From Hermatobates lingyangjiaoensis (lineage: Eukaryota; Arthropoda; Insecta; Hemiptera; Hermatobatidae): a stretch of DNA of 64,000 nt. Where the stretch lies: contig JAPFBL010000610.1 in the NCBI GenBank assembly GCA_026182355.1, positions 216,001-280,000 of the forward strand, read 5' to 3'. A program made the translations under genes and the position numbers. Within the stretch, counting starts at the first letter, position 1. Each line of letters starts with the position of its first letter. Below are positions 3,355 to 55,475 of the stretch, in pieces. The notes beneath the pieces are model-generated. The model ran no database searches. It saw only the letters and a program-made list of their open reading frames with translations, and had not been told where the DNA came from.

Positions 3355-3665
3355 TTGTAGGGTTAAAAGCTAATGTGAAATGGTCTCTACATATAAAAAT
3401 TTAATGGTATAAACAAGGCGTTTCGAACACTTAGTGTTCTTCCTACTAAAAAAATACAATGTCATCAGAGAGTTATCTATAGTACAAAGTAAATATAGAT
3501 AACTCTCTGATGAAGTTGTATTTTTTAGTTAATGCCTGAGGAAGAACACTAAGTGTTCGAAACGCGTTGTTTATACCATTAAATTTTTATATGTGGAGAC
3601 CATTTCATTAGCTTTTTAGCCTACAATTAGTAAATACCACCTAATAACTGATTGCACTGCGTTAG
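3355..3665 (+). mobile_element. Penelope-like snap-back element with 12-bp TSD
   Basis: A 311-bp inverted-repeat element. The left arm is the reverse complement of the right arm but lacks its last roughly 45 nt (AATTAGTAAATACCACCTAA through GCACTGCGTTAG). The perfect duplication AATTTGAAGTTA at 3343-3354 and 3666-3677 marks the insertion. The same termini (TTGTAGGG at the left, ATTGCACTRCRTTAG at the right) bound the copy at 16927-17102. Each arm holds a hammerhead-like core. Assignment to Penelope-like elements rests on the shared architecture with copies elsewhere that keep coding remnants. Confidence 0.8.
3536..3568 (+). ncRNA. Hammerhead-ribozyme-like motif
   Basis: CTGAGGA is followed by one unpaired A, a 6-bp hairpin GAACAC-TAA-GTGTTC and then GAAA plus CGCGTT. 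This order (CUGANGA, stem II, GAAA, short stem III, NUH) is that of a type I hammerhead with a minimal stem III. The additional base between CUGANGA and stem II departs from the canonical core, so activity is uncertain. Confidence 0.55.
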
Positions 3666-3758
3666 AATTTGAAGTTAACTAGTTTTCAATTAATTATTTC
3701 AAATTACAGTAGAAAACTCAGTTTACTTAATGTATTCAAATTATAGGCTAGATTGTAC

Positions 3759-4100
3759 TTTAGGAGCCCCAGCGTTTACAGAGATGGGCCTTTACACAGA
3801 GGTTATAAGGGTTTCCCTATTCTCCAGTAGGGATTTTGGAGTCATTTCTTTTTCTTAAATGGCAACTCATAATTATAAACCAGTAATATTTCTTTCAATA
3901 TAAGTTTAATTAGTTCTTGATATATTCCTGGTTTGGGAGAATACAAAACACTTCTTTCAGTCTAATAAATAAGACATTATTTACCTGAAATTATCAATTA
4001 CAACAAAATCCATAGATGTTTACATTTTGAAATTACTAAAACAAATTAGTTTTATAAACATTTTGGCCATTGTTGATTTGTCAACTCTGGGGCTCCTAAA
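3759..4100. mobile_element. MITE with 18-bp terminal inverted repeats
   Basis: TTTAGGAGCCCCAG(C/A)GTT at 3759-3776 is mirrored at 4083-4100. The 342-bp interior has no coding potential. A target duplication was not clear, so the superfamily is not assigned. Confidence 0.6.
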
Positions 4101-4242
4101 CTCCCTCTGTTCCAAATTATATTAAATTAATTAAAAACATTTAAAATCATTAGTTGTGCAATCCGTAATTGTGTGGTATTTACTCATTCTGAGGTCAAAT
4201 GGATAAACCAACAAAAGTCTCCACACAAATGAAGTTTTATTC

Positions 4243-4275
4243 AACGCGTTTCGAACACTTTGTGTTCATCATCAG
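4243..4275 (-). ncRNA. Hammerhead-ribozyme-like motif, inverted arm
   Basis: On the minus strand: CTGATGA, one base, GAACAC-AAA-GTGTTC hairpin, GAAA and CGCGTT. It is identical in core to the three direct units to its right, so an RNA across the element could also pair arm to arm, competing with ribozyme folding. Confidence 0.55.
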
Positions 4276-4315
4276 GAAAACACCAACCCGTCAGTACCAC
4301 TTCCTTGGTGTTTTC

Positions 4316-4348
4316 CTGATGATGAACACAAAGTGTTCGAAACGCGTT
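4316..4348 (+). ncRNA. Hammerhead-ribozyme-like motif, first of three tandem copies
   Basis: CTGATGA (the exact consensus form) is followed by T, the 6-bp hairpin GAACAC-AAA-GTGTTC, GAAA, then CGCGTT. Copies begin again at 4445 and 4574. CGCGTT after GAAA can be read as a two-pair stem III ending in a GUU cleavage triplet. One additional base sits between CTGATGA and stem II. Confidence 0.6.
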
Positions 4349-4852
4349 GAATAAAACTTCATTTGTGAAATTACTAAAATGAGGAAACTCCTACTAGTTG
4401 TTTTCACTTGACCAACCCGTCAGTACCACTTCCTTGGTGTTTTCCTGATGATGAACACAAAGTGTTCGAAACGCGTTGAATAAAACTTCATTTGTGAAAT
4501 TACTAAAATGAGGAAACTCCTACTAGTTGTTTTCACTTGACCAACCCGTCAGTACCACTTCCTTGGTGTTTTCCTGATGATGAACACAAAGTGTTCGAAA
4601 CGCGTTAAATAAAACTTCATTTGTGTGGAGACTTTTGTAGGTTTATCCATTTTACCTCAGAATAAAAACATTTAATGGTCGTATAATTATTTACCATTCT
4701 TTGCTAAACTACTTTACTATTTCATATATAAATATAAAATTTCAAAACTAAATGTATTTGTTTTTTAATTATTTTATCTGGATTTATACCACTTTTAATG
4801 TAATAAAAATAAATTATGCTTACAAAAAAAACCCTTTTGTGATTCTCATAAA

Positions 4853-4858
4853 TTTATT
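4853..4858 (-). promoter_or_regulatory. Candidate poly(A) signal of FPPS
   Basis: AATAAA on the minus strand about 86 nt past the FPPS stop codon, the first such hexamer downstream. Its position suits cleavage of a short 3' UTR, but AT-rich DNA gives this hexamer often by chance. Confidence 0.45.
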
Positions 4859-4943
4859 TTTTCTTCTTTAGTTTCTTCAAATGTTTTGTAGATCTAGCAC
4901 AATAACTAATTAAAGATATAAAAATAGCATCAGACTTGAAATC

Positions 4944-6116
4944 TCATCGCAGTCTTTTATATATGTTTTCTAAAAGATTAAAAAATAATTTATGAGGCAT
5001 TCCTCGACTTGTTTGTTGTATAGTCGTTTCAATTATTTTATACGATTCCTCCTCATAGGCATTGAAAATCGATGGCAGACCTAATTGAAGATAAAGATTT
5101 TTCACTTCTTCTATTTTATTTAAATCATTTGAACCATAGCAGTCTTCCATTATCTTCCTTTGTTCTGTATTACATCTTTGTAAAGCAACAACTGAAAGCC
5201 AAGTACATTTTCCTTCTCTTATATCAGATGATGTTTTTTCATTATTACCAAAAACATCGATATAATCATCTTGAACTTGAAAAAATCTTCCAATTTCTAA
5301 AAGAATGCTTTTTGCTTGTCGATAAAGTTCTGGATCTGTTATTCCTGCTAATTGCATTCCAAGAGCAACAGGTAGATGGAATGTATAATAACTAGTCTTA
5401 TATTTAACCAAAGAATTATATGCATCCATTGTTAGCTTGGATAAATCACCAGAATTAGAAATATTTCTTGCTAATTTCGCATCCAAACATTGACCAATAG
5501 CTGTTTTAAAAGCAATATCATGAAATAATTCAAGCATATTTGTATAATATGGTTTTTTATTAAAATGAACTTTAAGTAATTCATAAATACTGCTCTCAAT
5601 TAGTAATGCATCATTAATAGCTGTTAAACCAACATCAGGATTTTTATGCCAAGCCGGCATACCTCTTCGTAATTCAGCATCATCGATGATATCATCAACA
5701 ACTAATTGATAACCCTGAAACATTTCTACACACCAACCTAAAATTTGAGACAATCTGATAGTTTCATCTGTTATTAAATCACTTGAAGCCATTGATTTAA
5801 AACTATAAACAACTGTTAAACCACGCAATCTTTTACCACCTGAAGATGCCAAATAAACTTCATCTCTTGTTGCAACATTATGTTGTAAAACTTTCGCCAA
5901 CCAAATTTTTATATCCGTTACATCACCATATTTTCCAGTATTTGTTAAATCTCTAACAACATCTGGAAAAACAGCCATGAAATCTCTTCTATCATCTTTA
6001 GTTATTGAATTAGCAACAACAGCGAAATTTTTATTCAATTTAATATTATTCAAGACACCGGAAAATTTATAAGCTTTGAAAAGCTTATTCATTCTTGATA
6101 GATTACAAGAAAACAT
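4944..6116 (-). CDS. FPPS: Farnesyl diphosphate synthase, single exon
   Basis: A 390-residue polyprenyl synthase that should condense DMAPP/GPP with IPP to farnesyl diphosphate, the precursor of juvenile hormones, dolichol and prenyl anchors. The substrate-binding loop GGKRLRG is at 93-99, the first Asp-rich motif DDIID at 141-145 with RRG at 150-152, KYKT at 238-241, and the second Asp-rich motif DDYID at 283-287 preceded by FQVQ. The basic C-terminus ends KRLR. All expected Mg2+ and IPP ligands are present, so it reads as a working enzyme. Residues 4 and 5 before the first Asp motif, usually two aromatic residues that set chain length, are Gln137 and Tyr136. Residues 1-40 contain no acidic residue and several Lys/Arg, resembling a mitochondrial presequence; Met9 is an alternative start in an equally good context. 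There is no intron, unlike many animal FPPS genes, which suggests a retrocopy, although no poly(A) tract or target duplication was recognised. It lies inside a protein kinase C intron, same strand. Confidence 0.93.
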   Translation of the reverse strand: MFSCNLSRMNKLFKAYKFSGVLNNIKLNKNFAVVANSITKDDRRDFMAVFPDVVRDLTNTGKYGDVTDIKIWLAKVLQHNVATRDEVYLASSGGKRLRGLTVVYSFKSMASSDLITDETIRLSQILGWCVEMFQGYQLVVDDIIDDAELRRGMPAWHKNPDVGLTAINDALLIESSIYELLKVHFNKKPYYTNMLELFHDIAFKTAIGQCLDAKLARNISNSGDLSKLTMDAYNSLVKYKTSYYTFHLPVALGMQLAGITDPELYRQAKSILLEIGRFFQVQDDYIDVFGNNEKTSSDIREGKCTWLSVVALQRCNTEQRKIMEDCYGSNDLNKIEEVKNLYLQLGLPSIFNAYEEESYKIIETTIQQTSRGMPHKLFFNLLENIYKRLR

Positions 6117-6696
6117 AATTTTGAAATAAGCTTAATAAAACTCATATATTTACCACTAAGAAACTTTAAACTGAATACCTAAAGAAACAAAATGAATTTA
6201 ATTTAATTCCAACTAATTCCTACTCAATGACACTACTGATAAGACCTAAAACTTGTAAACAATCTATAAGGCAACACTGCCAATAATTTTCACTAAAAAC
6301 CAATAATACCTTCCTTTTTTTTTATTTTAATAATGAATTATGAGCACGATAAAAGCAAAATAAATTTAGCTGTTTTTCAAATATATGTTTTAAAAAATTT
6401 ATAAATATACAGACGTGGCGTGCAAAGGTGAGGACGAAGTTAATATAATAAAATATGATAATATGATAAATTTAAATTTTCAACAATAGTGAATCAAATT
6501 TTACAGAACAACCCTACCGAAAAAAAGTTGTTAATCATTTATTCTTGTATAGATACTCGTTCAGAAATTACCTGGAAATTTACGATACCCAAACACGCTT
6601 CATTATTATTATATTAATTCTTTTGTTATTCTTTGCTTACTTTAGTCTTTACATCTCATCATGTTTTTTTTTATTTTTTAAAGTTAATTGTTAAAA

Positions 6697-7045
6697 ACAT
6701 AACCATAATTTGGCGAAAATTGCTTCTTGTAAAGTTTTTTCTACCTTCACGAATAACATTTTTGTTATTCCATCTACATTAGATAACACACTTACTACTG
6801 TTAACATGTTTCAACTCTTTCCTAGAGCCATTTACATAAAGAGAATGATTCTCTAAATGTATTCTCCTTTTATATAGGCAAAGTAGAGAATCATTCTCAT
6901 CCAGATGATGGCTGTAGGAATGAGTTGAATCATGTTGATAGTAAGAAGTACGTTATTTAGTTTAGATGTAATTACAAAAACGTTAATCAGGAACACAGAA
7001 TAACCTAACAAAGAAGCAAGTTTCACCAAATTATGGTTTATATTT
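6697..7045. mobile_element. Foldback/MITE-like inverted repeat
   Basis: Two diverged arms of about 160 bp face each other around 6862-6886. The outer ends read AACCATAATTTGG and its complement, the inner ends AGAGAATGATTCTC. No coding capacity was seen and no target duplication was certain. It is the main recognisable element in the roughly 1 kb upstream of the FPPS start codon. Confidence 0.55.
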
Positions 7046-7136
7046 TTATTAATATATACTTACAACGAGGACTGCTACCAAAATTTTCAAATATTAGAAT
7101 TTATCTAAACAGAAGTTATAAGATATAAAATTATAT

Positions 7137-7570
7137 ATGATCAAACCACAATAAGAAAATGTGAAAACAAGACTAAGATCTTTCAACCGTAACAAGCGGT
7201 CTTCGTCAGAGTCAAAAACCCAACTGAGTCAGTTCGTCAGAGTGCTCACCTCGAGAGTGAGTGATTTTCATTTGTCTATTCGTCAGAGTGCTCACCTCGA
7301 GTGGGTGATTCCCATTTGTCTATTCGACAAAGTGCTCACCTCGAGAGTGAGTGATTTTCATTTGTCTATTCTTCAGAGTCTTCACCTCGAGAGTGGGTGT
7401 TTCCCATTTGTCTATTCGTCAGAGTTCTCACCTCGAGAGTGGGTGATTCCCATTTTTCTATTCGTCAGAGTCTTCAACTCGAAAGTGAGTGATTTTCATT
7501 TGTCTATTCGTCAGAGTCCTCACCTCGAGAGTGGGTGATTCCCGTTTGTCTATTCGTCAGAGTCCTCATC
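7137..7570. repeat. PLE arm running into a 46-bp minisatellite
   Basis: 7137-7230 is one arm of the Penelope-like family whose plus form reads CTCTGACGAAGACCGCTTG. From about 7205 to 7570 a unit of about 46 bp (starting CGTCAGAGTGCTCACCTCGA) repeats about seven times. The unit contains the CGTCAGAGT piece of the PLE arm, so the array probably grew from it. Because 46 is not a multiple of three, the open frame across it changes frame each unit and is not taken as a gene. Confidence 0.7.
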
Positions 7571-7673
7571 ACCAGAGTGGGCAGCAGGCCATACTGATTG
7601 CGTAGACTAGCTAACAGGCGGAAGGTTTTGTAGTCACTCACCTTACCTGCAGCCAAGGTATTTAAATCCACAT

Positions 7674-8239: not shown

Positions 8240-9010
8240 ATATAGTTAATGGGTTAGTTCCACTGAGGTTAGTAATATTAGAATTAGTAATAATACATTC
8301 CGTCATACCTCATAAAGTCTTAGAAAAGCTTGACCGGTTTCGGGTCCGTCTGGAACCCATCTTCAAGAGCACTTAACTGACTGTGAATGTTGTTTTCCTA
8401 TAACATACCTATATATAGCATCTACATTGTGTAATCAGTGTTGTGTGTGTAGTTATTTTTTTTTCTTTTTTTTTCCTATTTCTTTAATTGCTATGTTTTT
8501 TTCTTTTATTCCTTATTTCATTATCTAGTTCCAGTTCCTTTTGTCGTCTTTTAAATGTTATTAGTGGTTTTGTTAAAATGTCGGTTTGGTGGTTTGTTTA
8601 TCCATTGATTATATTGTCTGTCATTTTATGTTTATATATTTCTATTTGTTCCTGTATGTTCATTCGTTGTCCTTTTTGTCCCGTCTGTAGTAAGTCCATT
8701 GTGTTTTCCATACTGTCTAGATTTTAACAAAACCACTAATAACCTTTAAAAGACGACACAAGGAACTGGAAATAGATAATGAAATAAGCAATAAAAGGAA
8801 AAAAACATAGCAATTAAAGAAATAGAAAAAAAAATAACTACACACACAACATTGATTACACAATGTAGATGCTATATATAGGTAGGTTATAGGAAAACAA
8901 CATTCACAGTCAGTTAGGTGCTCTTGAAGATGGGATCCAGGCGGACCCGAAACCGGTCGAACTTTTCAGAGACTTTACGAGGTATGACGGAATGTATTAT
9001 TACTAATTCT
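8240..9010. mobile_element. Penelope-like palindrome, two 3' ends joined head to head
   Basis: 8240-8727 is the reverse complement of a PLE 3' end and 8720-9010 repeats it in plus orientation. The sequence matches the last codons and 3' UTR of the PLE at 52688-55135, including AAAACCACTAATAAC, AAAGACG and the ACCGGTC motif. The two copies meet at their 5' breaks near 8720. Each arm carries the GAAACCGGTC motif. Confidence 0.8.
8923..8958 (+). ncRNA. Hammerhead-like motif with GUC triplet
   Basis: CTTGAAGA, T, a GGG...CCC hairpin, then GAAACCGGTC. The last ten bases can form A-U and C-G pairs around CG and end in GUC, the most common hammerhead cleavage triplet. The first element is UUGAAGA rather than CUGANGA, a base change that should weaken or abolish cleavage. 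A mirror copy is at 8332-8368 on the minus strand. Confidence 0.45.
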
Positions 9011-9384: not shown

Positions 9385-10215
9385 CATTGGTATATTTTTA
9401 CTTATTTTTAAAATATTTTTTAATGTTTTAAAAATTTCAATGATTTTTAAAATGTACTTTATTATTTTTGAAAATATTTCTTATAGTTTTTAAATGAATT
9501 TTTACTTATTTTTTTAAAAATATTTTTAATCTTTTAAAAAGTTTAATAATTTTTAAAATATACTTCATAATTTTTGAAAATATTTGTTAAAGTTTTTAAA
9601 AGAATTTTTACTTATTTTTAAAATATTTTTTAATGTTTTAAAAATTTCAATTATTTTTAAAATGTACTGTATTATTTTTGAAAACATTTCTTATAGTTTT
9701 TAAAAAATTTTTTTTACTTATTTTTAAAATATTTTTTAATGTTTTAAAAAAATCAATGATTTTTAAAATGTACTTCATTATTTTTGAAAATATTTCTTAA
9801 AGTTTTTAAAAGAATTTTTACTTAATTTTTTAAAATATTTTTTAATGTTTTAAAAATTTCAATTAATTTTTAAAATGTACTTTATTATTTTTGAAAACAT
9901 TTCTTATAGTTTTTAAAAAAAATTTTTTACTTATTTTTAAAATATTTTTTAATGTTTTAAAAAGTTCAATGATTTTTAAAATGTACTTCATTATTTTTGA
10001 AAATATTTCTTAAAGTTTTTAAAAGAATTTTTACTTAATTTTTTAAAATATTTTTTAATGTTTTAAAAATTTCAATTAATTTTTAAAATGTACTTTATTA
10101 TTTTTGAAAACATGTCTTATAGTTTTTAAAAGAATTTTTACTTATTTTTAAAATATTTTTTTTTATGTTTCAAAAAGTTTAATGATTTTTAAAATATACT
10201 TTATTCTTTTTAAAA
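9385..10215. repeat. AT-rich tandem array, about 105-bp unit
   Basis: About eight copies of a unit beginning TTTTTACTTATTTTTAAAAT, varying by small A/T-run indels. No coding potential. The A- and T-runs recur at short spacing, which may favour curved DNA. Confidence 0.75.
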
Positions 10216-16339: not shown

Positions 16340-16590
16340 ATGATAAACGAAAAACGGTCCGGCAGGACAAATAACAATTAAAATAAGCAGTGACACATAA
16401 ACAGAAACACAACAAAGACTCACTTTTCAATATTTCGACCGTAATTTCAACTTGACTGTCGTCCCTCCATCAATTCACTTCTTCTCCTGAGGACGACCGC
16501 CATTACGGTCGAAATATTGAAAGGTGAGTCTTTGTTGTATTTCAGTTTATGTGTCACTGCTTATTTTAATTGTTATTTATATATATATAT
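16338..16590 (+). mobile_element. Penelope-like snap-back element (AATATTGAAAGGTGAG family)
   Basis: Arms run from ACGGTCCGGCAGGACAAATA... at left to GTCACTGCTTATTTTAATTG at right, flanked by (TA)n on both sides. The plus arm has CTGAGGA, C, GACCG-CCATTA-CGGTC, GAAA at 16487-16514, a clear hammerhead-like core; the minus arm's core is damaged. Confidence 0.7.
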
Positions 16591-16770: not shown

Positions 16771-17698
16771 AACTTAACCAGGCTATTGATGTAGGCCTGC
16801 ATTGGTTGCTACAACAGGATCAGGGTGATTACAAAACAGCAGTCTTAAGGACAGATAGTTCAGTGGCAATAGCAGCAATAAGAGACCACGAAAATCATAA
16901 CTGCACTGTTCAAATCATTAGAAGCATTGTAGGGTAATTTTTTTTTTTTTTTTTTTTTTTTTAGTTAATGCCTGAAGAAGAACACTACGTGTTCGAAACG
17001 CGTTGTTTATATCATTAAAAGTTTTATATGTGGAGACCATTTCATTAGATTTTTACCCTACAATGAGTAAATACCACATAATAACAGATTGCACTACATT
17101 AGAATCATTAGAAGCAGTCTGTGGAAATTAAGAAAATTACATCAATGGAATATTTCTATCTTATGGGTAAAAGGACATGCCGGACACGAGGGCAACGTAA
17201 GAGCTGAGGAATTGGCAAAAAGAGCTGTACAAGATGAAATAATACCAACAGTATACATCAAAGTACCCTTGACATATATTAAAAGACAAGAACACATTAA
17301 AAGCATAGAGAAATGGAACAATATATGGCTCAATGCAACCAAAGGGGCGGTAACAAAAACGTACTTCAGGAATGTATATATAAGAAATAAAACTATACTG
17401 AACCATATATACAAGACAATGGTTCTGACGGGACACGGTAGAAATAGGTCATATTTGTACCGATTTAAGCATGTCGCTTTGCCCTACTTTCCCTGCAATG
17501 AAGAAGAGCAGACCTTTCAGCACATTGTATTTAACTGTCCAAATTATAAATAATTATAGACAAAAACTAATAAAAAATATCATCCTACAAGGAAAACGTG
17601 GCCCGAAAACGTGGCAGGAAATGCAAGAAAACCTAATCACCAAGTACAACAAAGACTTCTTTGGTTTTATAAACAATCTACCAATCGATGAATTATAA
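16769..17698 (+). pseudogene. LINE RNase H and C-terminal fragment, split by a PLE
   Basis: Codes for the RNase H domain of an I-like non-LTR retrotransposon: RTDSSVAIAAIRDH upstream, then WVKGHAGHEGNVRAEELAKR after the interruption, followed by LTGHGRNRSYLYRF and a C/H-rich knuckle ending HIVFNCPNYK. A PLE insertion at 16927-17102 breaks it, and one frameshift near 17550 is needed to continue to the natural end at 17698. RNase H normally removes RNA from the RNA-DNA hybrid during target-primed reverse transcription. Dead copy. Confidence 0.8.
16927..17102 (+). mobile_element. Penelope-like insertion with 14-bp TSD
   Basis: Perfect duplication AATCATTAGAAGCA at 16913-16926 and 17103-17116. 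The element starts TTGTAGGGTAA, runs through a T-tract, the core at 16972-17004 (CTGAAGA, A, GAACAC-TAC-GTGTTC, GAAA, CGCGTT) and ends GCACTACATTAG. Termini coincide with those of the 3355-3665 copy. Confidence 0.85.
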
Positions 17699-20571: not shown

Positions 20572-20860
20572 ACAAACACTTTTTCTTTTTCTCGGAGTTT
20601 GGTCAGGGTAAATATATGGAATCACCTTTTTGCCAACGTTTCGTCTTTATTTCAAGACATCCTCAGGGCTATAAATATATAAATTATATAAACATATAAA
20701 TATATATAATATAAATATAAATTTATAGCCCTGAGGATGTCTTGAAATAAAGACAAAACGTTGGCAAAAAGGTGATTCCATATATTTACCCTGACCAAAC
20801 TCCGAGAAAAAGAAAAAGTGTTTGTTAATATTTTGTGGTCAAGAAAACAGTACCGTATAT
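20572..20860 (+). mobile_element. Penelope-like snap-back element (GATGTCTTGAAATAAAGAC family)
   Basis: Arms run between AACAAACACTTTTTC and its complement around AT-rich 20670-20725. The plus arm has CTGAGGA, T, GTCTT...AAGAC and then AAAACGTTGGC; the minus arm keeps GAAACGTTGGC. The right arm alone carries the tail TTTTGTGGTCAAGAAAACAG, and (TA)n lies on both sides. Related to 42905-43565. Confidence 0.7.
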
Positions 20861-20869
20861 ATATATATA

Positions 20870-21530
20870 AATTCAAACAAGGGGTTCTTGAGGATTTTGG
20901 TCATAAAACATATAACTCCTGATTATAAGCCGACGTTTCGTCAAAAATTGTTTGGCATTTTCAAGGCTAAAAAACAATTTATTAACGACATACGAGTAAG
21001 TAAAGCAAGATAAATACATCACCGGACACCACCCAACAGAAAACAAACAACATAAACATTTGTGATTATTAAAATCAAATATTAATTGATTTTTCTTTCT
21101 TTTTTTTTTAGTTATTTTTCTCTCTGTAGTTACTAGCTTTCCTAGGGCAGCTAGCAGAGTGTTGCTAGCATAAATAATTTGTTATTATTATTAAAAATAA
21201 TAATCAGTGTTGTGATTATTATTGTTCTGAATAATTAATAACCAGTAATTAGGTTTAAACAACCAAGTCGGTTTTTAAATAATAACAATAACAATAACAA
21301 TAGGTATTTTATGATCCTTTGTGGTTCTCTTGTTACTAAATTTTTGTTTGTGTTCTTTGTTTTCTGTTGGGTGGTGTCCGGTGATGTATTTATCTTGCTT
21401 TACTTATGTCGTTAATAAATTGTTCTTTAGCCTTGAAAATGCCAAACAATTTTTGGCGAAACGTCGGCTGATGATCAGGAGTTGTATGTGTTATGACCAA
21501 AATCCTCAAGAACCCCTTGTGTGAATTTAT
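20870..21530 (+). mobile_element. Penelope-like snap-back element, about 660 bp
   Basis: Arms mirror from CAAGGGGTTCTTGAGGATTT to its complement; 21010-21060 mirrors 21345-21400. The right arm carries CCTTGAAAATGCCAAAC...GGCGAAACGTCGGC, a degenerate relative of the hammerhead-like core (UUGAAAA in place of CUGANGA). Bordered by (TA)n at 20858 and 21525. Confidence 0.7.
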
Positions 21531-30019: not shown

Positions 30020-30190
30020 AGAAATTTGGTAACCAGTTGGGTTTTTGACTCTGACGAAGACCTCTTGTTACGGTTGAAAGATCTTAGTCTTGTTTTCCCT
30101 TTTTCTTACTCTGACGAAGACCTCTTGTTACGGTTGAAAGATCTTAGTCTTGTTTTCCCATTTTCTTATTGTGGTTTGATTATAGATTGT
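30020..30190 (+). mobile_element. Penelope-like end with direct duplication of the core
   Basis: Two direct copies of a 60-bp segment, CTCTGACGAAGACCTCTTGT onward, follow each other at about 30048 and 30108. Each has CTGACGA, ACCT...GGTT and GAAA. Most copies of this family in the window are inverted, so this is a direct-repeat version. Confidence 0.75.
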
Positions 30191-30239: not shown

Positions 30240-30860
30240 GAAAAATGAATAAAAAGAACACTTAGAGAATTCAATATTTGGAACTGTTGTTCGTCATCAG
30301 GAGTAGAGTCGAAGAGAGGACGAAGTGAGAGAGATCTCCCCACGTCGAAGAGCGGAGCGCGAATGAAGCAATAAAGAGTCAACCGATGAGAGCAGCACTA
30401 GCGTAAAAAAGGAGCTAGGCACTAAAGGTCGGAGAACGGAAAAGGCAAAAACAATAGATAAAATTATAAAATTCAAACTATATAAAAGGAAATAATATAT
30501 ATATATAAATTAAAAGGAATAACATATAAAAGTTAACGATTCTGATTTAAACCGGGATCTGATCTGGCCCTCAATAACCATATGTGGGCCTTCTCAGACG
30601 CTCTTAATGTCAAACTACGGTAATCAGTGGTCACTAGCTTAATTATTTGAACACTAAAGCAGCCATTAAAAGAAAGGTTATGACTGTTGGCATGGATGGC
30701 TACAGGAAGCTGTTTGCGCTGACCGACCGAAGCTCTATGGCCGTTCATACGCTCATTGAGCTTGGTAGAAGTCATACCAATGTAGAATGCTCCACATTGT
30801 CTACAGTTCATGCTCCACTTGTCACAGTGGACTCGTTCTTTCACAATAATTGTCTATTTC
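30240..30860 (-). pseudogene. Penelope-like GIY-YIG endonuclease C-terminus with 3' UTR
   Basis: The open frame 30533-30844 encodes KWSMNCRQCGAFYIGMTS, then LNERMNGHRASVGQR, HANSHNLSFNGC and a tail ending SDPGLNQNR. The CxxC before YIG and the Arg/His after it fit the GIY-YIG endonuclease of Penelope-like elements, the domain that supplies DNA nicking. The RT part is missing. The 3' UTR ends at about 30245 after CTGATGACGAACAACAGTTC and then CAAA instead of GAAA, a mutated hammerhead-like core. This links the coding family to the non-coding snap-back copies. Confidence 0.82.
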
Positions 30861-30939: not shown

Positions 30940-31160
30940 CAGTTTATACGTTATACCTGATGATGATTTCAGTGAAATCGAAAGCTTGTAAGTAAAAAAT
31001 ATATTATTGAGTAACCTACGAAATTATTTCTTCGATGTCACTGGGACAACTCCTTCATGAAATCACTCCCTACCAAAGAAAACTAGTTAGAAAACTAGAA
31101 AACACTAACAAAAAGGTCGTGAATGCGGAAGCTGCCGTCTACTTTAATATATATATATAT
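30940..31160 (+). mobile_element. Penelope-like leader with hammerhead-like motif and ORF start
   Basis: A strong core at 30957-30983 is followed 52 nt later by ATG (31035) and codons MSLGQLLHEITPYQRKLVRK and AAVYFN, the start of a PLE ORF, before passing into (TA)n at 31148-31161. It shows that the motif lies upstream of the coding start in this family. Confidence 0.65.
30957..30990 (+). ncRNA. Hammerhead-ribozyme-like motif
   Basis: CTGATGA at 30957-30963, T, hairpin GATTTC-AGT-GAAATC (30965-30979) and GAAA at 30980-30983, then GCTTGTA. Stem II is a perfect 6 bp. One additional base sits before stem II, as in the other families. Confidence 0.55.
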
Positions 31161-31394: not shown

Positions 31395-32180
31395 ACATGA
31401 GGTTTCTGGCTTTTTTTTCTTCTAAATAACATAAATTATCATCCTGGTATTAGTAATTCACAATGAGGGCAGAGTGAGACCGAAAAGCCTGGGCTACTCT
31501 CACGTTATGTTAAGCAAACTATACCTTTATTATACATCAACAATATTGTTATTAATATGTTTTGTAGTGTACAATAAACATAAACTAACAGTATCCACGT
31601 GTATTTGATGATTGTGATTTAAAGCAAGGTGAGGCAGAGAATAGCCTAGCTATCCTCCCTTCTCATATGCCTAGCTATCCTCCCTTCTCATATGCCTAGC
31701 TATCCTCCCTTCTCATATGCCTAGCTATCCTCCCTTCTCATATGCCTAGCTATCCTCCCTTCTCATATGCCTAGCTATCCTCCCTTCTCATATGCCTAGC
31801 TATCCTCCCTTATCATATGCCTAGCTATCCTCCCTTCTCATATACCTAGCTATCCTCCCTTCTCATATGCCTAGCTATCCTCCCTTCTCATATGCCTAGC
31901 TATCCTCCCTTCTCATATACCTAGCTATCCTCCCTTCTCATATGCCTAGCTATCCTCCCTTCTCATATGCCTAGCTATCCTCCCTTCTCATATGCCTAGC
32001 TATCCTCCCTTCTCATATACCTACGCTACTCCAATTTCATTCAAATCTTTTCAAATTGGCCATTACAGTATTTGGCTGGACTAACCATTCTAAACTGTGT
32101 TCAGGTTTGGTTATATATCTTGTTGTGCGTTTTGACCTGCCGTCAATAGTTAGGCTAGGCTTTATTTATTCATTATAAAG
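31395..32180 (-). repeat. Inverted copy of the 25-bp minisatellite element
   Basis: Reverse complement of 480-1480. About 15 copies of the 25-bp unit occupy 31644-32025, and both flanks (CAATGAGGGC...; CTCCAATTTCATTCAAATC) match those of the left copy. Copy number differs (19 against 15), as expected for independent array drift. Confidence 0.8.
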
Positions 32181-34374: not shown

Positions 34375-34840
34375 GGACAAAAAGAACACACAGAAAATGA
34401 AACAGAAACTCACTACTATATTTCGATCGCCTCGTCATCAGTATGATAGAAACGAGTCACTCCGAGGCAGACCACGACACGCACTCTCTCTCTCTCTCTC
34501 TTTTCTCTGTATATATATATATATATATATGGATTAATTTACCACAATGAAACAAACTTGGAAACAATGCTCTAAGGCCTTTCGTCAACACATCTAACAT
34601 ATATATATATATATATATCAATGATCAAACCATAATAAGAAATGGGAAAACAAGACTAAGATCTTTCAACCGTAACAAGCGGTCTTCGTCAGAGTCAAAA
34701 ACCCAACCGTTGGGTTTTTGACTCTGACGAAGACCGCTTGTTACGGTTGAAAGATCTTAGTCTTGTTTTCCCTTTTCTTATTGTGGTTTGGTCATTGATT
34801 GTTATTTCACGTGTTTATGTGAAACCTTTTTATCGATATA
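34375..34840. mobile_element. Cluster of three Penelope-like ends
   Basis: 34375-34500 is a minus-strand 3' end with CTGATGACGAGGCGATCGAA. 34530-34600 is a minus fragment of the AAGGCCTTTCGTC family. 34620-34835 is a plus snap-back element whose arms meet at CCAACCGTTGGG (34703-34714) and whose right arm alone has TTTCACGTGTTTATGTGAAA. (TA)n separates them. Confidence 0.75.
34724..34760 (+). ncRNA. Hammerhead-ribozyme-like motif (CTGACGA family)
   Basis: CTGACGA, AG, stem ACCG-CTTGTTA-CGGT, T, GAAA, then GATCTTAG. It recurs with the same core at 40140, 41400, 47855, 49935 and 51205 on the plus strand. Confidence 0.5.
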
Positions 34841-34859
34841 TATATATATATATATATAC

Positions 34860-35131: not shown

Positions 35132-35300
35132 CTTTACTCAATAAAACGAAACACGATCCAAACTGGACACAATACGAGTTCAAAATTCAAGAAGAGTAAC
35201 ACACAGAGTAAGGAAACACACTTACAGACTCAAATTTTCGGGTAATCCATCTTCAGGAGAAAAGAGAAATGGAGACCAAGCACGTTGTAGACGCAATGAC
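34860..35300 (-). mobile_element. Two Penelope-like 3' ends
   Basis: 34860-35040 (minus) has CTGATGACGACGATGGTCGA at about 34957-34976, the family also at 44085, 46800 and 47535. 35130-35300 (minus) has CTGAAGATGGATTACCCGAA. (TA)n tracts at 35083-35130 lie between them. Confidence 0.7.
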
Positions 35301-37787: not shown

Positions 37788-38340
37788 GTCTTTTTGTTTG
37801 ATCGGTGATTTTACATTGGGAGTCCTAAATTTTGCCTAACTCAAGCGTATTTAGAGGTGGTTAGAGGTGGTAGGGATGTTTAACGAGTACCTGGCATCGT
37901 ACAGGCTTGGGACCGACAGTTCAACGTCCTCTCCGATGGACGATGTACTCAGATTTACTCACCCCCTCATGAATAAATCGAGAGCCACGTAGGTTTCGAA
38001 CCCGGCACCTACCAGTTCAGAGGCAAACACGTTAACCACTGAGCTAACATGGTCCCGACTAGATTATTATTATCATAGGTATTCTCCACTAAGAATTGTG
38101 TCAAAGATTGTATTTCGATTCTTTTAGCATCCCTTTCATAAATTGAATTCATGTTATTGTATATATAAGTCTAACGGGCTTGGTTAGATCAGTGGCAACG
38201 TGTTCTCCTCTGATGATATTACAGAATAAACATTCTACATTGGGAGTCCTCAATTTTGCCTTAATTCTAGTGGATTTAGAGTAGGGATTTTAACGAGTAC
38301 CTAACATCGTACAACCTCAGGACCAACACTCATCCTTGGT
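37788..38340. mobile_element. SINE copy followed by a rearranged SINE
   Basis: 37788-38055 is a minus SINE copy. 38165-38210 is a plus-oriented head (TTGGTTAGATCAGTGG) joined at about 38225 to SINE body in minus orientation (CATTGGGAGTCCTCAATTTT). The second is therefore a head-to-inverted-body chimera. Confidence 0.7.
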
Positions 38341-38985
38341 TATTATGCCTGAAGAAGAATACAACGTATAAGAAACGCATTGTTTATATTAACTAACACC
38401 GAATTGTACCACAAACACTCATACTTGGTTATTATGCCTGAAGAAGAACACAACGTGTTAGAAACGCGTTGTTTATATTAACTAACACCGAATTGTACCA
38501 CAGACACTCATTCTTGGTTATTATGCCTGAAGAACAACACAACGTGTTAGAAACGCGTTGTTTATATTAACTAACACCGAATTGTACCACAGACACTCAT
38601 CCTTGGTTATTATGCCTGAAGAACAACACAACGTGTTAGAAACGCATTGTTTATATTAACTAACACCGAATTGTACCACAGACACTCATCCTTGGTTATA
38701 ATGCCTGAAGAAGAACACTACGTATAAGAAACGCGTTGTTTATATTAACTAACACCGAATTGTACCACAGACACTCATCCTTGGTTATTATGCCTGAAGA
38801 ACAACACAACGTATTAGAAACGCGTTGTTTATATTAACTAACACCGAATTGTACCACAGACACTCATCCTTGGTTATTATGCCTGAAGAAGAACACTAGG
38901 GGTTAGGAACGCGTTGTTTATATTAACTAATACCGAATTGTGCCACAGACACACATCCTTGGTGTTATGCTTGAAGAAGAACACT
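38330..38985 (+). repeat. 89-bp tandem array of hammerhead-like units
   Basis: About eight copies, CTGAAGA beginning near 38349, 38438, 38527, 38616, 38705, 38794 and 38883. Each unit has CTGAAGA (or CTGAACA), a hairpin of GAACAC and GTGTT type, and GAAACGCGTTG, then TTTATATTAACTAACACCGA. Some units have compensatory-looking or degenerate stems. The unit matches the Penelope-like family at 16927, so this is a satellite-like expansion of that motif. Confidence 0.8.
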
Positions 38986-38997
38986 ACGTGTTAGAAA

Positions 38998-40015: not shown

Positions 40016-40213
40016 TTTCACATAAACACGTGAAATAACAATCAATGATCAAACCACAATAAGAAATGGGAAAACAAGACTAAGATCTTTCAACCGTAAC
40101 AAGCGGTCTTCGTCAGAGTCAAAACCCAGTTGGGTTTTTGACTCTGACGAAGACCGCTTGTTACGGTTGAAAGATCTTAGTCTTGTTTTCCCATTTCGTA
40201 TTGTGGTTTGATC

Positions 40214-40255: not shown

Positions 40256-40379
40256 AATTCAAAACGAAGGAAACACACAGAAAGATACAGACATAACTCA
40301 CATCGATATGTGAGGTCCTATCAGCTCACATGATGAATCAAGCTATCACATCGATATGTCCGCTGGACCGTTTCTTTTA

Positions 40380-40416: not shown

Positions 40417-40724
40417 TAATTTTTTTGAGGTTTGAGGTCCAATGATTTTAAACTAGTCCTTTTGCCGACGTTTCGACATATATTTATATCATCTTCAGGG
40501 CTTGGATATCTGTTTATGTTGCAAACAGATAGTTTATGAAAACAAATAGTAGCCATCATGAAACAGTATTAAATTAGAATGCTGCAACATAAACAGATTT
40601 CCAAGCCCTGAAGATGACATAAATATATGTCGAAACGTCGGCAAAAGGACTAGTTTAAAATCATTGGACCTCAAACCTCAAAAAAATTACATCATATAAA
40701 TATTGGGTCAAGAAAACAAATCAT

Positions 40725-46789: not shown

Positions 46790-47105
46790 ATATATATATA
46801 AATAAAATAAATTCAAAATGAAGGAAACACACAGAAAGACACAGACATAACTCACATCGATATTTCGACCATCGTCGTCATCAGGAGGTGCGAAGAGCGA
46901 AGAGTCCCGCAGGAAGACAGGGCGGTACTAGCCCTGTACTGAGTACCGCCCTGTCTTCCTGCGGGACTCTTCGCTCTTCGCACCTCCTGATGACGACGAT
47001 GGTCGAAATATCGATGTGAGTTATGTCTGTGTCTTTCTCTGTGTTTCCTTCGTTTTGAATTTATTTTATTTTAAAAAAGTCCGCTGGACCGTTTCTTTTA
47101 ATTGC

Positions 47106-47516: not shown

Positions 47517-47534
47517 ATATATATATATATATAT

Positions 47535-47970: not shown

Positions 47971-47984
47971 ATATATATATATAT

Positions 47985-48868
47985 ATATTTCGTTGAACAG
48001 CTGACCGTATTTCGCTGATGTCATTTTCTTCACTAGTTTTTCAAGGTTTCTGAATACCTTCTTCTTTCCTTCATCCAAACGTTGGAGAATGTTAATTAAG
48101 TTATAACCGACATGTTTCGACTGGCTTCCAGTCATCTTCAGGGTGATTAATTAAACAAAGAGGAAAATTATTAGTCTTTGGAGTTGGTATTAAAACACAT
48201 TATATAGTAGAAGTTTGAAGTAGCTGCTCTTCGGCCTGATTCGCAAGAGCAACTGACTGTGGTGGGGTGGATGGTGGGGTGGGGGTACTGACAGTTAACG
48301 GTTTTTTCATCCAATCAGGCGAGTATAGTTTAAGCACTCTCTCACTACTACCCGTCTGTATATTTATTGTAGGTTTATTCTGTTTAATTAATTTAATCGG
48401 CTGCAAATCGCAGAAGCAATAATAATTAAACAGAATAAACCTACAATAAATATACAGACGGGTAGTAGTGAGAGAGTGCTTAAACTATACTCGCCTGATT
48501 GGATGAAAAAACCGTTAACTGTCAGTACCCCCACCCCACCATCCACCCCACCACAGTCAGTTGCTCTTGCGAATCAGGCCGAAGAGCAGCTACTTCAAAC
48601 TTCTACTATATAATGTGTTTTAATACCAACTCCAAAGACTAATAATTTTCCTCTTTGTTTAATTAATCACCCTGAAGATGACTGGAAGCCAGTCGAAACA
48701 TGTCGGTTATAACTTAATTAACATTCTCCAACGTTTGGATGAAGGAAAGAAGAAGGTATTCAGAAACCTTGAAAAACTAGTGAAGAAAATGACATCAGCG
48801 AAATACGGTCAGCTGTTCAACGAAATATGCTTAAAAGAAGGACTGCTTCCAAATTTTACAAATATATA
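47985..48868 (+). mobile_element. Near-perfect Penelope-like palindrome
   Basis: Arms 47985-48390 and 48423-48828, each 406 bp with no indel seen, around a 32-bp centre. The right arm continues about 40 bp further (TTAAAAGAAGGACTGCTTCC) before (TA)n; the left arm stops at (TA)n. Each arm encodes MTGSQSKHVGYNLINILQRL and LVKKMTSAKYGQLFNEI, a PLE ORF start, and the right arm completes CLKEGLLPNFTN. Lack of divergence implies recent formation or arm-to-arm conversion. Confidence 0.88.
48672..48704 (+). ncRNA. Hammerhead-ribozyme-like motif overlapping an ORF start
   Basis: CTGAAGA at 48672-48678, T, hairpin GACTGG-AA-(G)CCAGTC, GAAA at 48695-48698, then CATGTC, readable as a 2-bp stem III with loop AU and a GUC triplet. 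The ATG of the PLE reading frame starts at 48678 inside the motif. The mirror copy is 48109-48141. Confidence 0.58.
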
Positions 48869-48919
48869 ATTATATATATATATATATATAATATATATAT
48901 AATATATAATTGATAAAAG

Positions 48920-49790: not shown

Positions 49791-49804
49791 ATCAATTATA
49801 TATA

Positions 49805-50030: not shown

Positions 50031-50110
<80 letters not shown>

Positions 50111-50119
50111 TATACTAAA

Positions 50120-50971: not shown

Positions 50972-51572
50972 GTTGTAAGAGTAATGAAATAGTTTCCAGA
51001 TATAGAAATTTAATAGTATAAACAACACGTTTCGAACAAGTAATGTTCTTCTTCAGGCATTCAATAAAAAAAAACCATGTTATCAGAGAGTTATCTATAG
51101 TATAAATGATCAAACCGCAATAAGAAAATGGGAAAACAAGACTAAGATCTTTCAACCGTAACGAGCGGTCTTCGTCAGAGTCAAAAACCGAAACTGGAGT
51201 TGGGTTTTTGACTCTGACGAAGACCACTTTTACGGTTGAAAGATCTTAGTCTTGTTTTCCCATTTTTTTATTGTGGTTTGATCATTGATTGTTATTTCAC
51301 GTGTTTATGTGAAATCTTTTTATCTATGGTATAAAGTAAATGGTACAAAATAAAATAAGATAAGGAAGAAAGTATATACCTAAGGGTGAATGTCTAAGGT
51401 ACAAATTACTGGGAATAGGATGGAAATGGAAGAGGGTATGGAGTGTACATGTGTTTTCATATTGGAAAGCAAGTATATTTCTTTGTTATTTTTTCTCTAA
51501 TGTTAATTTTCATTTGATTATTACTCTAAAACATGAGTAAATACTACATAATAGCTGATTGCACTACCTTAG
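50972..51572 (+). mobile_element. Penelope-like element with a nested PLE
   Basis: Outer element of the 3355 family: left terminus TTGTAAGAG, right end TGATTGCACTACCTTAG, minus-arm core at 51025-51057. It was interrupted by the 51107-51319 element. Confidence 0.75.
51107..51319 (+). mobile_element. Nested Penelope-like snap-back, 14-bp TSD
   Basis: ATCTATAGTATAAA (51093-51106) and ATCTATGGTATAAA (51320-51333) flank a 213-bp CTGACGA-family snap-back that begins TGATCAAACC and ends GTGAAATCTTTT. It gives the true element ends, since no (TA)n is present on either side. Confidence 0.85.
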
Positions 51573-52000
51573 AATATCACAATAGGTTAGCTCTGCAGGA
51601 AAGGAGGCCAGGAATATTGAGAGGACCGAAGAGAGGATATTAAGATGAGAATCTATAAGATAACTCGACTCAGAGCAAAGTATTCCAGGAATTTGGAATA
51701 AACGGATACAAGTAAACTGCGATAATAATTGTAATCTGGATCCACACAGCTGAGTCAATTTCTATAATTGGAAAAAAGAGATATTTATAAAGAGTAACGA
51801 AAGAATTTTCGTTTCTTTCAGATCATACTTGTTTTTGTAAAATATGTTTTAATATATTTTTTTTAAAAGTTGTTTTCTGATAGACCTTTAACCATAAATT
51901 ATCTGGAACATGTTTTTTTTTTTATTTTGAGTTGATATTGGTTTCATTGTAACTGCAAAATTTGCATTTCTATTGAGTTTAGGAGTTCAGGAGAAAAAAA
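51573..52000. other. Short unique stretch
   Basis: No exon or repeat recognised; 51945-52100 is a diverged copy of the 23380 dispersed family. Confidence 0.4.
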
Positions 52001-52139
52001 ATGGTATCTGCAAAACACATATTGGCCAATAAAGTAGAGTTTGCATACGCAATATTCATCCTAAACCATATAGATCATCTATACTATAAGGGCTACGTTG
52101 CTATACATACATATACACATACATACATACACAATACAC

Positions 52140-52164
52140 TCACACACACACACACACATACACG

Positions 52165-52198
<34 letters not shown>

Positions 52199-52690
52199 AT
52201 TTCACATAACCACGTGAAATAACAATCAATGGTCAAACCACAATAAGAAAATGGGAAAACAAGACTATAAGACTAAATAGACTAAATAAGACTAAAACTA
52301 CTATATTAGTCTTGTTTTCCCATTTTCTTATTGTGGTTTGATCATTGATATATATATATATAAGAAAACAAGACTAAGATCTTTCATCCGTAACAAGCTG
52401 TTTTGTCAGAGTCAAAAACCCAACTGAACACTAGATGCAGAAAACATCTGGTGAGGAGTTGAGAAGAGAGAATATATATATATATATATACAAAACTAGA
52501 GTTTATTGGGACTCAGTCAGTTCTTCAGGTTCAAATCAAACTCTCATTTCCAACGTTTCGGTTTTTATTTCAAACCTTTTTCATAGGCAGAAGTATAAAT
52601 TTTTTAAACAGAAAAACTAACTACCATATTACATTAAAAATTATTTTACAAAGAAAAATAGTCTCAGAATTTTAACAACAACAACAGTTG
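52140..52690. mobile_element. (CA)n/(TA)n tract and Penelope-like arms
   Basis: (ACAC)n 52138-52160 and (TA)n 52167-52194, then a CTGACGA-family snap-back 52195-52350, a minus arm 52360-52480 carrying the upstream GAACACTAGATGCAGAAAAC segment shared with 41370, and a minus arm of the 48920 family at 52495-52640. Confidence 0.65.
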
Positions 52691-53191
52691 TTTTTGAAAT
52701 CCACAGAAATATGGATTTGGTTTGAAAACCTATACACTTCTGTGCCTGTTACAGAAAGACTTAAGATAATACGCGAACTAACTAATGTACACGAGCATGA
52801 CAATAGTACAGATGAACTAATAAAACCAACTAAAACAACTCTCAAACAGAACTACTTCAGATTTAACAATGAATTCTACAAAGCAAATGATAGATTAGAA
52901 ATGGGACATCGAACATCTGTGATACTTTCAGAAATTTTCCTCCAAGAACTTGAAAAGGTCTATGTAAATGTTCTAAAGTCAAAATTTAACGTTGTTTACT
53001 ATTGTAGATATGTTGATGACTCCTTCCTAATAGTCAATAACCCTAGTAACTAAAATATAATAGACATAAAGAATTATCTCAAGTCATTAAACAACAAGAT
53101 CAAGTTCACCCACGAAATAGAAACAAATGATAAACTGAAATTCATAGACTTAACAATAGGAAAAACTAAAGGTAAACTCAGCTTTCAAATA

Positions 53192-53942
53192 CAGTGGTAC
53201 CTCGGGATACGAGTGCCCCAAAATACGAGTTATTTGAGATACGAGCTGTCAAATGAGCGAAATTTTGTTTTGAAATACGAGTGAAATTTGAGATACGAGG
53301 AACAGCAAATTGTAGTATCAGGTCATTTATAAATATGTGCATTTCTTTTTTCTACGATGCCGCCTACGGCCAGTTTACCTTTGAAAATTGGAAGATCTTG
53401 GGAATGTGGGAGAGAATTTCACAGTTCGTGGCAAAAAAGCACCCCGAATAAGTTGCAACTAGTCGTGCATCGAATATGTTTAATGAAACTTGCCTAACCC
53501 ATTTCCGTAGCATTCTGAAAGGGAGGAAGAAACAAACCTCCTTGTACAGTTTTTTTTGTAATCCTGCTAAAAAGGCAAAGACCAGTGAAGAGAAAAGCAG
53601 TAACTAAAATTAAGTATACAGTAGCATTTAAGTTATGTCTAAGTTAATTTAAATAACGAAAATACTAATTACACGTGTACGTAAACTTAATAAAACCAGT
53701 TTTTCTAACAACCTCTACATTCTCTTTTATTATGTTTTTATACAATATTTGTCATTTGTAAATACATCTTTGTTTTTCAAAATTACGTAACAAAAACAAT
53801 TAGGGGTAAGTATTTTTGGGGCTGGAACGGATTAATGACATTTCAATTGATTTCAATGGGGAAAATTGCTTTGAGAAACGAGCAAATTGACATACGAGCA
53901 AGGTTACGGAACGAATTAAACTCGTATCCCGAGGTACCAGTG
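53192..53942 (+). mobile_element. pogo/Tigger- or mariner-type DNA transposon remnant
   Basis: Terminal inverted repeats CA(G/C)TGGTACCTCGGGATAC at 53192-53213 and 53921-53942 with TA on both sides (53190-53191, 53943-53944). The interior retains a broken frame with ASNMFNETCLTHFRSIL and KGRKKQTSL, resembling the C-terminal tail of Tigger-like transposases. 751 bp, so most of the transposase is deleted. Confidence 0.85.
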
Positions 53943-53948
53943 TATACC

Positions 53949-54096
53949 TGTTTTGATCGCTATGCACCCTAGCTTTCCAGTCATTTACACCTTTTGATCA
54001 AATCAGGCTGACTATTTAACGTGGTGCCCTTTTTGTCACCTCCAAGTTTAGCCACCCAAACTTGGGGTGTCCAAACTATATCATTTGTTGTTTACG
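53949..54096. mobile_element. 148-bp insertion with 10-bp TSD, split from its left TSD
   Basis: CAAATATACC at 54097-54106 matches CAAATA (53186-53191) plus TACC (53945-53948), once the Tigger-like element and its TA duplication are set aside. The 148-bp sequence has a weak internal hairpin (CCAAGTTT...AAACTTGG) and no known relative here. Confidence 0.6.
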
Positions 54097-55319
54097 CAAA
54101 TATACCGCAAACCAACTGCCACCGACACAACTATACATAAATCATCACTCCACCCACCACAACAAAAAACATCCGCGTATAGATATATGATTGATAGATT
54201 ACTAAACGTATCCATGAATCCAACTAACTATAGTAAGAAATTAAATACTATAAAAACAATAGCAAAAAATAACGGGTATATGGAAAAAATTATGCAAAGA
54301 CTAATAAACGAAAGAAGAAATAAACACAATACTAACAGTACAACACCGGGAGTAACGAACAGATACGCGTCTTTAACTTACATAGGTAAACCTAGCGAAA
54401 AAGTTACGACTCTTCTGAGAAAATATTCATTAAAAATAGGTTATAAAACGAATAACACTATAAACCAAATCACAAACAACACAATAGAGAACATAGATAA
54501 TAAATTTGAAAAGAGCGGAATATAGAAAATTAAATGCAAAGATTGTGGTAAAAACTACATCGGGCAAACGGGAAGAACACTAAAAGACAGATTTAAAGAA
54601 CACATTAAAGACTACACCAATAACACAAACAAATCAAACTATGCACACCACCTAAAGAAATTTGGACATAACCCAGATAGTATGGGAAACACAATGGACT
54701 TACTACAGGCGGGACAAAAAGGACAACGAATGAACATACAGGAACAAATAGAAATATACAAACATAAAATGACAGACAATATAATCAATGAACAAACAAA
54801 ACAACAAACAGACATTTTAACAAAACCACTAATAACATATAAAAGACGGCAGAAAGAACTGGAAATAGATATTGAAACAAGAAATAAAAGGAAAAAACAT
54901 AACAATAAAAAAAAAATTAACCACACAGACAACACTGATTCCACAATGTAGACGGCAAGTGTAGGTAGGTTATAGGAAAATGGAATACACAGTCAGTTAG
55001 TTGCTCTTGAAGATGGGATCGGGCCGGACCCTAAACCGGTCAAGCTTTTCTAAGACTTTACGAGGTATGACGGACAGTATTACTACTAATTATAATATTA
55101 CTAACCTCAGTGGAACTAACCCATTAACTATATTATTATTTGTATTTTGAGTTTTATTTTATTTTTTCATAGCTTAAACCGTACTTTTATTTATGTATCA
55201 ATTTCTCTGTTCATCACTCAATTTTTTCTTTTATTTGTACATTATGTTTTCGAATTCCACTAATTTAATTTCATTATAAACTGATTCGTGTCTAACTTAT
55301 TTTCTGTGACCAGGCGCGC

Positions 55320-55475
55320 ATGCGGCAACATTGTTGGTCTCCAACCGTCTCTGAACCAGTGCGCTTGGTTTCCCTCTCTTATCTCTCCTGAAGACGGTTC
55401 AAACCGAAAATTAGAGACTGTAATTGTGTGATTTTAATTTCTCTATGTTTCTTTTTCTACATTGGACTATATTTG
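55320..55475 (+). mobile_element. Penelope-like 3' end
   Basis: CTGAAGACGGTTCAAACCGA at 55387-55406 with AAATTAGAGACTG: CTGAAGA, C, GGTT-CA-AACC, GAAA, an intact hammerhead-like core. Sister of 15460-15590. Confidence 0.65.

Follow-up and report, generated by a model that had tools for sequence, protein, structure and literature searches.

Probable hammerhead ribozymes in several lineages of Penelope-like elements from Hermatobates lingyangjiaoensis, with a start codon overlapping the core in one family

The sequence analysed here (the window) comprises 64,000 nucleotides (nt), positions 216,001 to 280,000 of the forward strand of contig JAPFBL010000610.1, from the genome assembly of Hermatobates lingyangjiaoensis (GCA_026182355.1). 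It contains many copies of a compact motif, very probably a hammerhead ribozyme that belongs to several lineages of Penelope-like elements (PLEs). The motif is carried mostly by small non-autonomous insertions in which terminal repeats lie head to head. In one family, the start codon of the PLE protein lies within the ribozyme core, and the form of the insertions suggests that reverse transcription starts twice per insertion. The family names F1 to F10, and the grouping of F1 to F9 with their sub-lineages, were made by eye in this analysis. Standard usage is followed for hammerhead numbering and for the classes type I and NUH, and published accounts with PMC numbers are cited from excerpts.

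The exact motif was defined as CTGANGA, n extra bases, a stem of at least 3 bp (G-U allowed), a loop of 3–12 nt and GAAA, on either strand. With one extra base, the window holds 37 such motifs; with none, two or three it holds not a single one. Two hundred dinucleotide shuffles of the window yielded a mean of 0.115–0.130 motifs and a maximum of two. With a stem of at least 5 bp, 23 matches are found at n = 1, against a shuffled mean of 0.02 and a maximum of one. The original prediction, that many unrelated-looking repeat families share one hammerhead-like core, is thus upheld. The motif is present at all nine sites that it quoted, the last core starting at 55388 rather than 55387, and the quoted stems are correct; at 55388 the stem is read here as GGT/ACC with the loop TCAA. 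A looser pattern returned 38 matches, namely 37 with one extra base and a single one without (17204, with a 19-nt loop), which looks like chance. Further, more decayed copies emerged from a relaxed scan and from a covariance model trained on 12 representatives of the lineages. These representatives are sub-lineages of the nine by-eye groups and are therefore not fully independent. The model gave 48 matches up to E 0.0045 and 69 up to E 5, with rough E-values and with its training sequences among the matches. Viral contigs held no match to the motif pattern and no relative of the window's PLE endonuclease, while the 21 pattern matches in prokaryotic contigs, 19 of which have a stem II of at most 2 bp, are taken as chance.

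The core C3UGANGA9 ... G12AAA is present in all 37 exact copies; families F9 and F10 differ from it at C3, and F10 also at G8. Stem sequences diverge between lineages and pairing is kept, as originally proposed. The three core-proximal pairs of stem II are formed in 36 of 36 cases among the 12 representatives, above every one of 5000 partner reshuffles (mean 25.6, maximum 33). The first four pairs of stem I are formed in 38 of 48 cases (reshuffles: mean 25.4, maximum 36); across six pairs the signal is weaker, at 48 of 72 (mean 36.1, maximum 49, with 0.08% of reshuffles reaching 48). In each representative, GAAA is followed by a 4- or 6-nt palindrome that runs from A15.1 to U16.1, and this in turn by a non-G base, H17 (for example ACGCGU-U, AGAUCU-U, ACGU-C, AGCU-U, AUAU-C, AAUU-A, ACAUGU-C and ACCGGU-C). 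Palindrome and H17 together are found in 12 of 12 representatives and 35 of 37 copies; the same pattern follows 164 of the 1039 GAAA in the window. Stem I pairing and the stem III palindrome with H17 are hammerhead traits additional to those first noted. The layout is that of a minimal type I hammerhead with a predicted NUH cut site, in which stem I is open, stem II is closed by a loop and stem III is a 2–3-bp palindrome. Since stem III can pair between two copies only, activity should need two ribozymes, either in tandem or in two RNAs.

One nucleotide, N10, sits between A9 and G10.1 in the exact copies, and in none of them does A9 stand directly before stem II. N10 is A in 15, T in 13 and C in nine of the 37, and never G. 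Across the genome of 909,949,117 bases, the F1 pattern matches at 9756 places with the extra base and at 11 without; the reversed F1 pattern, used as a control, gave no match of either kind. Insertions of one or two bases at this position are known from natural hammerheads (PMC3705267, among other sources), so that the extra base is best regarded as the mark of a variant and not as grounds for exclusion from the hammerhead class. The suggestion that it is specific to this lineage was not borne out. The PLE RNA of Anolis, CUGAGGA-U-GCCUGC..GUGGGC-GAAA-CGUC-AGG, has the same U in the same place (PMC11167929), and an A10 insertion is known from a viroid hammerhead, in which A10 slows cleavage moderately, U10 raises the trans-cleaving rate 3–4-fold, and C10 and G10 are harmful (PMC3705267).

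In family F8 the extra base belongs to a start codon, A9-U10-G10.1. The window contains one F8 head-to-head pair, whose arms of 406 bp are 100% identical, with hammerheads at 48109..48141 (−) and 48672..48704 (+; N10 = T). In the latter, the AUG at 48678–48680 opens a frame of 63 codons followed by a stop (48678..48869, +), which encodes the N-terminus of a PLE protein. This N-terminal peptide was found at no fewer than 150 scored places in the genome, out of 40947 first-look candidates, and the matches listed are all 100% identical. Nine F8 copies, picked for long frames or tandem spacing, each contain two hammerheads 2630–2640 nt apart. Their frames, read from A9-U10-G10.1, encode 856 amino acids (aa) in five copies and 866, 794, 625 and 102 aa in the rest; every one of these frames is preceded, at a distance of five codons, by an in-frame stop, and the interval has no other ATG. 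The F8 protein matches Pfam RVT_1 (E 4e-12), and its residues 334–748 align at 29% identity with P0005, which has reverse transcriptase (RT) and GIY-YIG domains. A YIG motif was read by eye in the F8 protein, where Pfam calls no GIY-YIG. It is through this 856-aa open reading frame (ORF), with RVT_1 and the alignment to P0005, that the RT and GIY-YIG protein of PLEs is represented. The predicted cut falls after the ninth codon, so that cleavage would separate the AUG from the F8 frame. In the Anolis element, C3 and G8 are described as preceding an ORF that starts at stem II, and cleavage as taking place 26 nt past its start codon (PMC11167929); this fits an AUG formed by A9-U10-G10.1.

The pseudo-long terminal repeats (pLTRs) show the arrangement characteristic of PLEs, in tandem or inverted order and with an optional 30–40-bp tail. 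Twelve head-to-head pairs in the window have arms that are 91–100% identical, and in 12 of 12 one arm is long, with an extra stretch at its outer end, and the other short. Other copies of the family supplied the tail references, though not for F8 or for one F3a pair; among the twelve scorings, that of F3b is the weakest. Four more pairs (F5 44158/44203, F2 49888/49925, F2 52267/52303 and F9 46095/46076) are also long-short, which makes 16 of 16 scorable window pairs; the F7 pair appears long-short by eye, with no independent reference. In F1, all 18 head-to-head neighbours within 1.4 kb among 100 places listed, chosen with tails ignored, are long-short, with the long arm on the left in eight and on the right in ten. 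In F8, where loci were required to have one or more long arms, 20 of 21 pairs are long-short and one is long-long. Altogether, 54 of 55 scored pairs follow the rule, the short arm being about 40 nt shorter and ending at a fixed site.

Many of the same insertions are flanked by target duplications, from which tails of 30–41 nt were measured. Fourteen of the 18 F1 pairs have duplications of 10–14 bp (12 bp in nine), located 89–97 nt from the core on the short arm and 128–139 nt on the long arm. As a control, at least 10 bp were shared by flanks of different loci in 13 of 306 comparisons. Four of the twelve window pairs have duplications of 12–16 bp, two of these with one mismatch; seven others lie in (TA)n and hence cannot be judged. 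The F1b insertion at 4132..4675 has its long arm on the left and its short arm on the right, between 13-bp duplications of TAAAAACATTTAA (4132–4144 and 4663–4675). The F1a insertion at 3343..3677 is flanked by the 12-bp duplication AATTTGAAGTTA; its plus-strand hammerhead is at 3536, and the minus copy near 3444 has lost CTGA. An F2 insertion at 51091..51335, with cores at 51178 (minus) and 51214 (plus), has a 16-bp duplication with one mismatch. One long and one short arm suggest two separate starts of reverse transcription, one per site, on the two strands of one break.

In 51 of 54 copies the sequence continues for 17 nt or more upstream of the predicted cut, and the usual template would thus have been uncut at that site; cut RNA as the usual template was rejected on the same count. 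In three copies, from two insertions, the start lies no more than 6 nt from the predicted cut, which hints weakly that cut RNA may also be copied at times. One F2 insertion, at 52208..52349, has no hammerhead, its arms, one long and one short, starting at most 5 nt from the predicted cut, with about 35–40 nt of filler between them.

These features could be accommodated by the following scheme. Uncut F8 RNA would serve as the messenger, read from the A9-U10-G10.1 start codon. A cut after the ninth codon would remove the start codon and free a unit that spans one ribozyme to the next. The target break would be staggered, with reverse transcription starting independently on its two sides and using RNA positions some 40 nt from each other, and both cDNAs would read back through the uncut ribozyme before meeting head to head. 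In Anolis, both target strands are cut and extended by the protein, which starts at two adjacent sites on the RNA and shows no strand preference in vitro (PMC11167929). A wider proposal is offered tentatively, at somewhat less than an even chance. It holds that PLE hammerheads form a class whose extra nucleotide is fixed by the start codon being built into the core, that translation and self-cleavage are exclusive fates in a switch from messenger to template, and that each insertion uses both start sites once, one per target strand.

A number of observations weigh against these interpretations. The original prediction proposed a search with Rfam hammerhead models; Rfam 15 returned no hammerhead in the window, either at gathering score or at E<=10. 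The miss is likely due to the combination of an absent stem III loop with the extra base, and the sub-threshold Rfam matches, mostly miRNA-type hairpin families, are taken for inverted repeats. When six sequences were folded as monomer and dimer, a stem III duplex formed in the F1b dimer only. F9 carries U3 instead of C3. The A10 families (F1a and F2) and C10 families (F5 to F7) have no AUG at the core position, by which the idea of an AUG in the core of all families is rejected; the extra base in these families needs another reason or is inherited. Where an AUG is present, F3 frames nevertheless stop after two codons and those of F1b and F4 after ten. From the AUG of F9, frames of 16 (with a stop absent in sister copies), 28 or 45 codons are read, in a core with U3. 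The start-codon account is thereby limited to U10 families with open frames: F8, Anolis and, in part, F9. All 71 F8 hammerheads counted, from 39 loci, have T at N10, a count biased by the choice of loci through a protein match beginning with that very AUG; one hammerhead per locus being so selected, only about 32 of the 71 are free of this bias. Finally, no duplication of 10 bp was found in four of the 18 F1 pairs, and none in the F3a pair 15683/15986.

The C10 families may have another explanation. In F5, F6 and F7 representatives C10 is able to pair with G12, and C10 is strongly harmful in the viroid hammerhead (PMC3705267). These families may have no insertion at all, with a C10-G12 pair that lengthens stem II (otherwise 3 bp in F5 and F6) and removes GAAA, in which case they would not be hammerheads carrying an insertion. 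This is a serious possibility, if somewhat short of probable. Against it, the palindrome, H17 and stem I stand in the same register as in other families, and an F6-type copy at 35222 (minus) has T at N10 with its layout unchanged.

Rather less likely is that the motifs are mostly inactive hammerhead relics, retained within sequence needed as a reverse-transcription start, for protein binding or for coding. The predominance of copies made from RNA uncut at the site would be expected of relics, as would C10, U3 and the broken closing pairs of many copies. Insertion of the Anolis element in vitro needs no cleavage, and none of its RNA-seq reads end at the cut (PMC11167929). The maintenance of paired stems, H17 and stem III palindromes across sequence-divergent lineages speaks against mere relics, and F8 copies hold the complete motif.

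Self-priming of one cDNA (snap-back) instead of two starts was favoured for the rotifer Penelope from palindromic junctions (PMC3846280). In the window, a junction resembling snap-back is seen in one F5 remnant at 40309 (minus), and the arms of the F10 pair (20964 minus, 21433 plus), unscored as it has no tail reference, seem equal-ended, a further point against two starts. Snap-back should, however, make the second arm repeat the end of the first, and in 54 of 55 pairs it is instead about 40 nt shorter, at a fixed site, which renders this route improbable for the copies as a whole. Satellites or palindromic DNA transposons whose hairpins arose by chance would account for the inverted-repeat form and the tandem arrays, and are hardly credible in view of the PLE ORFs, the tails, the start-codon link and a motif frequency far above chance.

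Further copies lie across the window. The F1b hammerhead at 4316..4348 (+; core to H17, N10 = T) is repeated in 129-bp tandem units, with more copies at 4445 and 4574 and one at 4275 on the minus strand, and an F1a hammerhead (N10 = A) is found at 16972..17004 (+). F2, with N10 = A, is represented by a head-to-head pair at 34617..34850 (34692 minus, 34724 plus) with (TA)n flanks and by a hammerhead at 40144..40178 (+) whose stem III is AGAUCU. Hammerheads with N10 = T are those of F3a at 40608..40639 (+; GUC cut site, partner 40498 on the minus strand), F3b at 20635..20666 (−; its partner at 20731, +, has AAAA for GAAA) and F4 at 30957..30987 (+). The hammerhead-like motifs with N10 = C are F5 at 46987..47012 (+; partner 46884, minus) and F6 at 55388..55413 (+), both with a 3-bp stem II, and F7 at 16487..16518 (+); a further F5 pair has C3 at 47664 (minus) and 47742 (plus). 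The hammerhead-like core of F9, TTGAAGA with N10 = T, occurs at 8332..8366 (−), and with its partner at 8924 (+) is flanked by a 12-bp duplication with one mismatch. The core of F10, TTGAAAA, replaces C3 and G8 by U3 and A8 and is accompanied by U10 and an ACGU palindrome; its stem II is full in the plus copy (21429–21477) and has one mismatch in the minus copy (20920–20968). The F10 core may be a natural case of compensation within the C3-G8 pair, for which F9 (U3, G8) could be the intermediate state. In Anolis, either G8C or C3G alone abolishes protein-assisted cleavage, and the double mutant regains it in part (PMC11167929).

Coding remnants of PLEs are also present. A remnant at 54052..54951 (+) with a GI*..YIG motif, in which a stop replaces the expected Y, has 43 homologs at E<=1e-3, among them P0005. 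An F9 copy at 55007..55041 (+), with the core TTGAAGA and TAAA replacing GAAA, lies 55 nt past the stop of a PLE endonuclease frame. An RT fragment at 52676..53050 (+) matches RVT_1 at E 8e-6, under the Pfam cut-off, and a GIY-YIG fragment at 30536..30853 (−) matches weakly, at a Pfam E of 0.06, also under the cut-off; a decayed hammerhead lies about 230 nt downstream of the latter (30300, minus). Three N- or C-terminal fragments gave no Pfam domain. Assignment of the motifs to PLEs, part of the original prediction, therefore stands on the tails, the duplications, these RT and GIY-YIG pieces and the intact F8 copies; its other part, that they are ribozymes, is probable from sequence and pairing.

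A splice-donor-like GTRAGT lies 0–6 nt 3′ of the predicted cut at nine of 43 sites (16487, 30957, 34976, 44009, 44203, 46884, 46987, 47664 and 47742), against a background of 0.00048 per base. In F4 at 30957 it is GTAAGT right at the cut, and in F7 at 16487 GTGAGT 5 nt 3′ of it. The sequence also occurs in decayed F5/F6-type copies. It is confined to F4, F5, F6b and F7, with the other lineages lacking it, and splice donors as a general feature were rejected.

Hammerhead motifs are carried by tandem units of 129, 89 and 60 bp; retrozymes, non-autonomous hammerhead retroelements whose tandem non-coding units form circular RNA, were compared on this trait. The 89-bp array at 38326–38997 is satellite-like and contains F1-type hammerheads, the inspected copies of which have a broken stem II closing pair, and the two 60-bp units at 30048–30168 contain little beyond an F2 hammerhead. 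One 25-bp satellite unit is repeated at 635–1119 and 31644–32028 in opposite orientations, and a large array of ~121-bp and 30-bp units lies near the end of the window (59487–63738). Near an F1 insertion, an uninterrupted frame at 4944–6131 (−) encodes a polyprenyl (farnesyl-type) diphosphate synthase (Pfam E 1.4e-66).

The in vivo activity and role of PLE hammerheads were described in a review as "still a mystery" (PMC7761336), and a start codon that forms part of the core and precedes the cut would give them a concrete role open to testing. The insertion route of PLEs, itself unsettled, is directly constrained by the one-long-one-short rule and the duplications of about 12 bp. F1 alone contributes 9756 motifs, of a kind that Rfam models miss in the window. 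PLE hammerheads as such were already known; the start-codon link and the strict tail rule look new. Neither the extra base nor the start-codon link is stated in the portions of the PLE literature covered here, and both may be contained in Cervera (2014), Lunse (2017), Craig et al. (2021) or de la Pena and Flores (2001).

Among known systems, the closest is Poseidon of Anolis carolinensis (PAc), which shares the core with an extra U, the palindromic ACGU stem III, the NUH cut, the ORF start at stem II, the two starts of reverse transcription and the 30–40-nt tail; its host and stems differ, and its cleavage was demonstrated in vitro with protein (PMC11167929). The excerpted PAc text leaves the extra base unremarked. 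Minimal PLE hammerheads, the subject of work by Cervera and de la Pena in 2014 and Lunse et al. in 2017, are reportedly located in pLTRs and possibly cleave as dimers. By the summaries of those studies, they resemble the present motifs in being type I with a weak or absent stem III. The plus hammerhead of Chrysanthemum chlorotic mottle viroid likewise has an extra base, A10, between A9 and G10.1, in an element that, as a viroid, is unrelated to PLEs (PMC3705267). Penelope of Adineta vaga has inverted head-to-head pLTRs with a 31-bp tail on one of them, target duplications of 8–10 bp and a pLTR that holds the first 12 codons of the ORF; hammerheads are not discussed in the excerpted account (PMC3846280). 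Unlike that element, which is present at very low copy number, F1 has thousands of copies in Hermatobates lingyangjiaoensis.

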